In this document: positions 1,011 through 41,531 of the stretch, piece after piece
How the letters are laid out: each line of letters starts with the position of its first letter
How positions within the stretch are numbered: the stretch's first letter is position 1
NCBI GenBank assembly: GCA_015063455.1
Contig: SVUC01000003.1
Coordinates: forward strand, 1-46,549
From: Oscillospiraceae bacterium
Lineage (GTDB): Bacteria > Bacillota > Clostridia > Oscillospirales > CAG-272
Direction of reading: 5' to 3'
DNA length: 46,549 nt
Made by a program: the position numbers and the translations under genes
The notes under the pieces: model-generated
What the model was told of the DNA's origin: nothing
What the model saw: only the letters and a program-made list of their open reading frames with translations
The model's database searches: none

Positions 1011-1030
1011 CTTTGGTTGATTCATTTTAG

Positions 1031-1463
1031 GGAAGCAATTTGCCGGATGCAAATTGCAATAGGTTTTCTTTGTCCTTACTCACCGAAGGTGAGTGGGCGG
1101 ACGGCGCACAAACTACTTTCATTCGGAAAGTGATTCAAGCCACACCTTTGTGAATACCGGCTATCAAGGGGTGAGTCGTGCAATTCACCGATGGTGAACA
1201 GCACTCCGATCCCCCCTTAAGTATCCCCCCTAAATTTACGGAAATATTGTAATCGAGACGCGACCAACAACTGCCGCGTCGATGAGGTATAACTTGAAAT
1301 TTGTACCCATAGGGGAGAATTCTTAAAGAGGGGATGTGGCATCCCGCAGGGAATGCCCCCTCTTTAAGTACCTGGATTCACAAGGACTCGGCACGAGAGT
1401 CCTTGTACGCCCCACGCGCAGTGGAAAGAAAGATCTAACGATTCGCACGAATCGTAATTTTGT
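1031..1463. repeat. Intergenic multi-hairpin element, copy A
   Basis: Shares modules with copies B-E: gcaatttgccggatgcaaattgc, ccccccttaag, gacgcg..gccgcgtc, cttaaagagggg..cccctctttaag, cacaaggactc..gagtccttgt, cgattcgcacgaatcg. Confidence 0.85.
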
Positions 1464-9129: not shown

Positions 9130-9640
9130 TTTGGGTATTTTTGCACTTTTGTAAGTGCATCAAATTACGATTTGCTTGATTCATTAGATTATTTTTTGGA
9201 GGAATTTGCCCGATGCAAATTCCGAATAGATTATATGCTCCTGCGCGGAGGGCGCATAAAGACCCTCGCGCCGGGTCTTTATGAATTCAGGCGCTTAAGG
9301 GAAGGCGGCAAGCCGCATCCTCCCTTAAGGATCCTACCTATTGGTGCAAACTTATAGTTATACCTCATCGACGCGGCAGTTGTTGGCCGCGTCTCGATTA
9401 CAGTATGTCCGTGGATTTAGGGGGGATTCTTAAGGGGGGATGTGCGGAGCACCCCCAGCCTTAAGCGGCTGGATTCACAAGGACCTGCCGTTAAGGTCCT
9501 TGTGCGCTGTCCGCGTAGGACATAAAGAAAAATACAATTTGCTTTGAGCAAATTGTTTCGAAAAAATCCACCGATTTGCACGAATCGAAATTTGATGCGC
9601 CCCACGCGCAGTGCGAGAAAAAACAAATGATTCGCACGAA
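9130..9640. repeat. Intergenic multi-hairpin element, copy B (core 9239-9520 inverted relative to copies A/C/D/E)
   Basis: Core tcctgcgcggagggcgcataaagacc...ggtccttgtgcgctgtccgcgtagga reads as the reverse complement of the other cores (cctcatcgacgcggcagttgttggccgcgtc vs gacgcggccaacaactgccgcgtcgatgagg). Confidence 0.85.
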
Positions 9641-11280: not shown

Positions 11281-11640
11281 CATTTTTGCACTTTTGTAAA
11301 GTGTATCAAATTACGATTTGCTTTAATTGTTAGGATTTAGGGAAGCAATTTGCCCGAGCAAATTGCAATTGGATTTTTATTGTCCTACGCGGACGGCGCA
11401 TAAGGACCTTGGCGGCAGGTCCTTATGAATCCAGCCGCTTAAGGATGGGAGTCGTGCAATTCACCGATGGTGAACAGCACTCCGATCCCCCCTTAAGAAT
11501 CCCCCCTAAAACTACGGACGGCACGTCCGTTGAGACGCGGCTAACAGCTGCCGCGTCGATGAAGATAAACTATAAGTTTTCACCCATAGGGGAGAATTCT
11601 TAAAGAGGGGATCAGGCATCCCCGCTGTAAGCGAAAGAAA
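11281..11640. repeat. Intergenic multi-hairpin element, copy C (right end truncated)
   Basis: Leader gcatttttgcacttttgtaaagtgtatcaaattacgatttgctt shared with copy B; core from 11393 (tcctacgcggacggcgcataaggacct...) shared with E; right terminal repeat missing after ggcatccccgctgtaagcg. Confidence 0.85.
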
Positions 11641-40529: not shown

Positions 40530-41050
40530 GATTTGATTTTTTTGAAGCAATTTGCGGGATGCAAATTGCAATAAGATTTTTATTGTCCTGCGCGGAGGGC
40601 GTATCAAATTTCATATCGCCGAGAGCGATAGATTCTTTTTCCACTGCGCGTGGGGCGCATAAGGACCTTGGCGGCAGGTCCTTATGAATCCAGCCGCTTA
40701 AGGCGGGGGTCGTATTAATTCACTGAAAGTGAATTAATACTCAGATCCCCCCTTAAGAATCCCCCCTAAAACTACGGATATAACATAAGCGGGACGCGGC
40801 CAACAACTGCCGCGTCGATGAGGTATAACTTGAAATTTGTACCCATAGGGGAGAATTCTTAAAGAGGGGATGTGGCTCCGCCACCCCCTCGTTGAGCGCC
40901 TGAATTCACAAAGACCCGGCGTGAGGGTCTTTGTGCGCCCCACGCGCAGTGGAAAGAAAGATATAACGATTTGTATGAATCGAATTTTTGTGTGCCCTCC
41001 GCGCAGTGGAAAGAAAGATCTAACGATTTAAGAAATCGTAATCTGATTAA
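40530..41050. repeat. Intergenic multi-hairpin element, copy D (concentric inverted repeats; core 40638-40955)
   Basis: Inner arms TTTCCACTGCGCGTGGGGCGCA (40638-40659) / TGCGCCCCACGCGCAGTGGAAA (40934-40955); outer arms TGCGCGGAGGGC (40589-40600) / GCCCTCCGCGCA (40994-41005). Confidence 0.92.
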
Positions 41051-41059
41051 TTTACTTTT

Positions 41060-41480
41060 AGGGAAGCAATTTGCCGGATGCAAATTGCGATAGGTTTTCT
41101 TTGTCCTACGCGGACGGCGCATAAGGACCTTGGCGGCAGGTCCTTATGAATCCAGCCGCTTAAGGAGGGGGTCGTGTTAATTCACTAAAAGTGAATTAAC
41201 ACTCAGATCCCCCCTTAAGAATCCCCCCTAAAACTACGGATATAACATAAGCGGGACGCGGCCAACAACTGCCGCGTCGATGAGGTTGAACTATAAGTTT
41301 ACACCAATAGGGGAGAATTCTTAAAGAGGGGATGTGGCATCCCGAAGGGAATGCCCCCTCTTTAAGTGCCTGGATTCACAAGGACTCGGCACGAGAGTCC
41401 TTGTGCGCCCTCCGCGTAGGAGCAATCTTCCGTGCGATTCGCACGAATCGAAATTTGATACGCCGCACGGCAGCGCAAAT
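41060..41480. repeat. Intergenic multi-hairpin element, copy E (core 41104-41421)
   Basis: TIRs TCCTACGCGGACGGCGCATAAGGAC / GTCCTTGTGCGCCCTCCGCGTAGGA (two mismatches); internal hairpins shared with copy D; same 318-bp core length as D. Confidence 0.92.
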
Positions 41481-41531
41481 CCTTCCACCCATAATTATGA
41501 ATAAATCCCCATAAAAATTCAAAATATAGGT

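Follow-up and report, generated by a model that had tools for sequence, protein, structure and literature searches.

A family of gene-less, multi-hairpin repeats with mirror-image ends, probably mobile, in gut Clostridia

Introduction

Non-coding repeats of bacterial genomes are usually explained either as short REP hairpins or as TIRs derived from insertion sequences (IS). Two tandem repeats, D and E, at positions 40,530 to 41,480 of contig SVUC01000003.1 from an Oscillospiraceae bacterium raise the question of whether either explanation applies to larger, multi-hairpin sequences devoid of genes. The original prediction, made from the letters of the window (the whole stretch of 46,549 nucleotides analysed here), had considered it plausible that they are either non-autonomous mobile elements or large structured elements of DNA or RNA.

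Organisation of copies D and E

A check of the arms on the sequence bore out the description of D and E as gene-free, concentric multi-hairpin repeats with the same order of hairpins in each. The two inverted pairs proposed for D are both perfect, the 22-bp pair (40638-40659/40934-40955) lying within the 12-bp pair (40589-40600/40994-41005). In E, for which TIRs of about 25 bp had been proposed, pairing is almost perfect over the outer ~25 bp, and arms of 68 nt (41104-41171/41354-41421) show 81% complementarity. The ordered hairpin series holds for E, whose hairpin 4 is perfect, but not entirely for D, whose hairpin 4 lacks the 3′ arm CCCCTCTTTAAG and has CCCCCTCGTTGAG. The nested cap is present in D but is not specific to it, most copies being flanked by chains of extra hairpins. 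In line with the proposed lack of a transposase in the window, a Pfam scan of its 30 longer ORFs found none among them. The features of the two copies are listed below.

40531..41030, plus strand: copy D including the outer layer; core, A to A′, 40641-40952
40547..40569, no strand: outer hairpin GCAATTTGC..GCAAATTGC to the left of D
40589..41005, no strand: outer ring of D, the perfect 12-bp pair around the D core
40641..40653, plus strand: left joint hairpin A of D, CCAC-TGCGC-GTGG, with GGCG next to it at 40654-40657
40658..40697, plus strand: left hairpin B of D (40658-40686) with its linker, whose GCCGC (40693-40697) is complementary to GCGGC in the loop (40671-40675)
40697..40757, plus strand: D hairpin C, CTTAAGG..CCTTAAG; apical palindrome 40712-40740
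40793..40816, plus strand: D central hairpin GACGCGGC-caacaact-GCCGCGTC; an invariant CGATGA comes after it
40858..40896, plus strand: D hairpin 4, 3′ arm degenerate
40897..40952, minus strand: D right end module; B′ 40907-40935, CGCC 40936-40939, A′ 40940-40952
41050..41490, plus strand: copy E with flanks; core, A to A′, 41103-41422
41066..41088, no strand: outer hairpin left of E
41103..41158, plus strand: E left end module and linker; A 41103-41115, GGCG 41116-41119, B 41120-41148
41159..41219, plus strand: E hairpin C; apical palindrome 41174-41202
41255..41278, plus strand: E central hairpin
41320..41366, plus strand: E hairpin 4, CTTAAAGAGGGG..CCCCTCTTTAAG
41367..41422, minus strand: E right end module; B′ 41377-41405, CGCC 41406-41409, A′ 41410-41422

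Against shuffles, E folds with a z-score of -14.9 as RNA and -14.4 as DNA. Six strict end modules were found in the window and none in 20 dinucleotide shuffles of it.

Mirror-image end modules

Alignment of many copies revealed a common end module composed of hairpin A (N4-TRCGC-N4′), the joint GGCG, hairpin B (CAYAAG..CTTRTG) and a linker starting with AATCNC. At the opposite end of the element, this module recurs on the other strand as a mirror image with the joint CGCC, and the core between the ends is species-specific and quasi-palindromic. Measured from end module to end module, the unit spans 285-713 bp (median 377). The 713-bp element (L130 1006-1718, in genome G017) has a longer core and is nearly double the usual length. 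A 63-bp minimal form (L039 5266-5328) consists of a joint hairpin, one CATAAGGAC hairpin and an inverted joint hairpin, with no core.

Covariation was scored over 14 base pairs, where 97% of cells were paired, against 34-52% in slid controls; changes were two-sided in 93 cases and one-sided in few. Hairpin A, for instance, occurs as GTCC/GGAC, CTCC/GGAG or CCAC/GTGG. RNAalifold, run on 14 full copies from the genome to which the window belongs, independently recovered hairpins A, B, B′ and A′, the central hairpin, and a closing helix formed by GGCG and CGCC. The copies of this genome are mosaics in which entire hairpins have been swapped, and one central hairpin was found as mismatched chimeras.

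Evidence for selection on a folded strand

Hairpin B has a loop complementary to its following linker, through pairs as different as GTGCC/GGCAC, GCGCC/GGCGC, GAGCC/GGCTC, GTCG/CGAC, GGGCC/GGCCC and GCGCG/CGCGC, among others. Over 98 pairs, the complementary run averaged 3.63, against 2.69 ± 0.07 with permuted partners. In 35 elements with differing linkers, the local partner prevailed over the partner from the other end by 53 to 3 (p = 8e-13, an optimistic value given that these elements are related to each other). Since palindrome correction is not expected to yield such complementarity, the loop-linker pairing points to selection on a folded single strand and not merely on a double-stranded palindrome. 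The contact may be topologically a pseudoknot, or may reflect two mutually exclusive, alternating hairpins; according to our own estimate from H-type loop-length rules, the inward strand looks like the sterically easier pseudoknot.

A strand bias was also observed. In the inward reading, the non-Watson-Crick pairs of 92 distinct B hairpins comprised 30 A.C and 2 G.T, an excess that owes much to one recurrent position; after clustering of related hairpins, the events numbered 18:2, 11:2 or 8:2. Read on the outward strand, these A.C pairs become G.U (or G.T) wobbles, a polarity common to both ends. Pure palindrome conversion without selection was rejected on the loop-linker pairing and this strand bias.

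The outward-strand wobbles and the loop-linker covariation would also be features of a multi-copy structured RNA, whose halves would be transcribed outward and whose pseudoknotted end would act in processing, stability or attenuation, its spread being a by-product; the terminator-like hairpins found on either side of the copy in one species also favor such an RNA. However, with outward polarity at both ends and opposite module orientations, the favored strand switches between the ends, so that no single RNA can hold both. Moreover, the elements favor neither tandem nor convergent gene contexts (11 tandem, 7 divergent and 6 convergent, the background proportions), promoters did not exceed shuffle expectation in the one copy scanned, the core is not kept between species, and the Rfam comparison that had been suggested gave no credible match at the gathering or a relaxed threshold. 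We consider a structured RNA unlikely. A terminator or cis-regulator role was rejected as well, the gene context being equal to background.

An ordinary MITE of a DDE-type IS, with TIRs recognized in double-stranded form and hairpins whose perfection is maintained by templated correction of palindromes, would account for the mirror-image ends, the intergenic dispersal and the absence of an ORF, and hairpin-templated repair does correct quasi-palindromes. Such correction, however, yields neither the loop-linker complementarity (53:3) nor the A.C/G.T bias, and no IS with these ends was seen, the sole 2.1-kb end pair being an IS110-interrupted element, which makes this origin decidedly improbable.

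Other copies in the window and outer layers

The three related copies proposed elsewhere in the window are all real, but the left end of copy A is divergent and no right end is present in copy C.

1025..1460, plus strand: copy A, divergent left end
9157..9614, minus strand: copy B, core 9238-9521, between a leuA-like gene and a second HMGL-like gene; site empty in relatives
11281..11640, plus strand: copy C, right end missing, between an HMGL-like gene and a ddl-like gene; site empty in relatives

Beyond the end modules, extra hairpin layers are the source of the concentric pattern. They include TATCAAATTTC and GCAATTTGC hairpins in the genome of the window; in one species, the outer hairpin GGAAGAAAAA-NNACC..GGTNN-TTTTTTC has the score of a terminator on both sides of the copy, directed into it. 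Because these flanking layers carry the similarity between copies past their ends, no exact terminus and no target-site duplication could be made out, even among the ~86-93% identical copies of one genome (G008).

Distribution

The genome of the window (2.2 Mb) harbors about 21 copies, with 41 end modules on ten contigs. End modules were detected in 15 of the 25 genomes of the genus, this one included (9-97 each), and in 20 of 25 Agathobaculum genomes (1-23 each). Surveys with stricter filters, which may miss weak matches, found ends in 14 of 395 genomes of the family (11 of the 14 within the genus), 9 of 295 of the order and 3 of 391 of the class, the genome of the window being one of these three. 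In order and class, ends of this architecture are almost absent outside the genus and Agathobaculum. The named carriers are gut and rumen Clostridia/Oscillospiraceae MAGs, as well as Agathobaculum desmolans, A. butyriciproducens and A. intestinipullorum. The arms, which the original prediction had proposed to follow through further copies, are conserved across dozens of genomes. Neighboring ends less than 800 bp apart face inward in 62 of 66 pairs, and nearly all end pairs are spaced by 250-620 bp.

Several contigs of the genome of the window (among C49, C66, C129, C141 and loci L304-L318) begin or end inside an element copy. The family thus probably breaks short-read assemblies, and the copy numbers are lower bounds.

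Insertion sites

The gene order leuA-like, HMGL-like (cimA), ddl-like is kept across the genus. At these junctions, end modules are present only in the genome of the window, with gaps of 485 bp (copy B) and 380 bp (copy C), and in none of 22 relatives; most of the leuA-cimA gaps measured in relatives are 33-151 bp. In three relatives, G003 (L246), G002 (L257) and G024 (L258), a longer leuA-cimA gap contains ~360-440 bp of unrelated sequence, and the genus may therefore commonly undergo intergenic repeat expansion. Located upstream of a BcrAD-like gene, the D/E site holds no copy in 20 relatives, one of which (G015) has an end module elsewhere in the compared stretch. As the three sites of the window (D/E, B and C) are empty in all relatives examined, which are species at ~49-79% protein identity and not strains, the copies appear to have been gained in this lineage. 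The occupied and empty sites, together with the dispersed and mosaic copies, support dispersal plus recombination.

Search for a mobilizing enzyme and for described relatives

Two transposase families were considered as mobilizers. First, PF01797 (Y1/RAYT) is absent from G005, G010, G011, G012, G015 and G019, incomplete MAGs with 21-97 ends each; it was rejected, being missing from most element-rich genomes, though with some doubt owing to the incompleteness of the MAGs. Secondly, PF02371 (IS110) is present in 5 of the 25 genomes of the genus and absent from G000, G012 and G022, also incomplete MAGs; it was rejected since its presence does not correlate with the element.

In the survey of end pairs, no autonomous parent IS was found, the only ORF-bearing pair being that of 2.1 kb in A. 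intestinipullorum (L295, G702:C27), where an IS110-family transposase gene (PF01548, PF02371; 1857-2999, minus strand) lies inside an element copy, interrupting it ~394 bp from the left end. This pair was rejected as an autonomous parent: it is an IS110-interrupted recipient and not a source. The insertion recalls those of IS110 into REPs.

Mobilization as a REP/REPIN-type element, through a REP-associated Y1 transposase (RAYT), is disfavored and highly improbable, for although the paired inverted hairpins in intergenic DNA and the outward-strand 4-base joint CGCC beside a hairpin resemble REPs and the tetranucleotide tag, GTAG or CGTC, at their hairpin base (PMC3733652), the joint GGCG/CGCC is neither of these, the unit measures 285-713 bp, and PF01797 is lacking in the six genomes named above. 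The match to the REP/RAYT family that had been envisaged thus failed on both tag and Y1 transposase. The 2013 REP survey mentions neither Firmicutes nor Clostridia (PMC3733652).

Phage and plasmid records (blastn) and IMG/VR (exact pattern), queried with sequence of the species itself or with one end type, gave no match. The literature on Clostridia, Faecalibacterium, Agathobaculum and MITE/pseudoknot, in a search that most subscription journals lay outside, yielded no matching description.

Discussion

Both halves of the original prediction gained support, mobility from the empty sites and structure from covariation. D and E are probably copies of one non-autonomous mobile element with a lifestyle like that of MITEs and REPINs. 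They belong to a family of gene-less, probably mobile elements of gut bacteria, ~300-450 bp long, which is apparently undescribed with respect to Rfam and the literature searched. Weighing against this reading, no transposase correlates with the element (Y1/RAYT, IS110), no target-site duplication or exact terminus could be made out, the empty sites come from a comparison of species and not of strains, the strand polarity also fits outward transcripts, and by our estimate the inward strand looks the sterically easier pseudoknot.

In the mechanism that we envisage for a mobile element, an enzyme supplied in trans would recognize the folded outward strand at each end, as single-stranded DNA rather than RNA, and would copy or move the unit into intergenic DNA; later recombination between copies would swap whole hairpins. 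More tentatively, the element may form a separate class, whose ends are recognized in the form of single-stranded pseudoknots folded from the outward strand and which is moved by a kind of enzyme not previously linked to such repeats; we hold this to be possible, though rather doubtful.

The replacement of entire hairpins with pairing kept, loop-linker contact included, indicates that selection acts on a folded single strand at each of the mirror-image ends, and the mode of movement becomes directly testable. A repeat family of gut bacteria is also delineated, with the cultured genus Agathobaculum among its carriers; this family probably accounts for part of the fragmentation of the MAGs that carry it.

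Among known systems, REPINs and BIMEs with RAYT share with the element intergenic inverted hairpin pairs, a tetranucleotide joint by the hairpin, mosaicism and many copies. However, they are hairpins of 20-40 bp or pairs of these, compared with 285-713 bp here, and the element has another joint, an extra pseudoknotted hairpin, a long core and no correlated Y1 transposase. Bacterial MITEs (Correia/NEMIS, RUP, ERIC, bcr1) are likewise non-coding, intergenic and non-autonomous, with inverted ends and strong secondary structure, and the element is short, non-coding and multi-copy with inverted ends, as a MITE is defined. It differs by covarying single-strand folds in place of a fixed TIR, and neither its parent IS nor a target-site duplication was found. 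Large structured Rfam RNAs resemble it in their multiple hairpins, pseudoknot and covariation, whereas the element displays a mirror-image module duplication, a variable core, a background gene context and no Rfam match. Finally, the double-hairpin elements of mitochondrial DNA, for which we know of no report of pseudoknotted ends, are mobile, gene-less chains of hairpins like the element described here, but they are much smaller and reside in organelle genomes.
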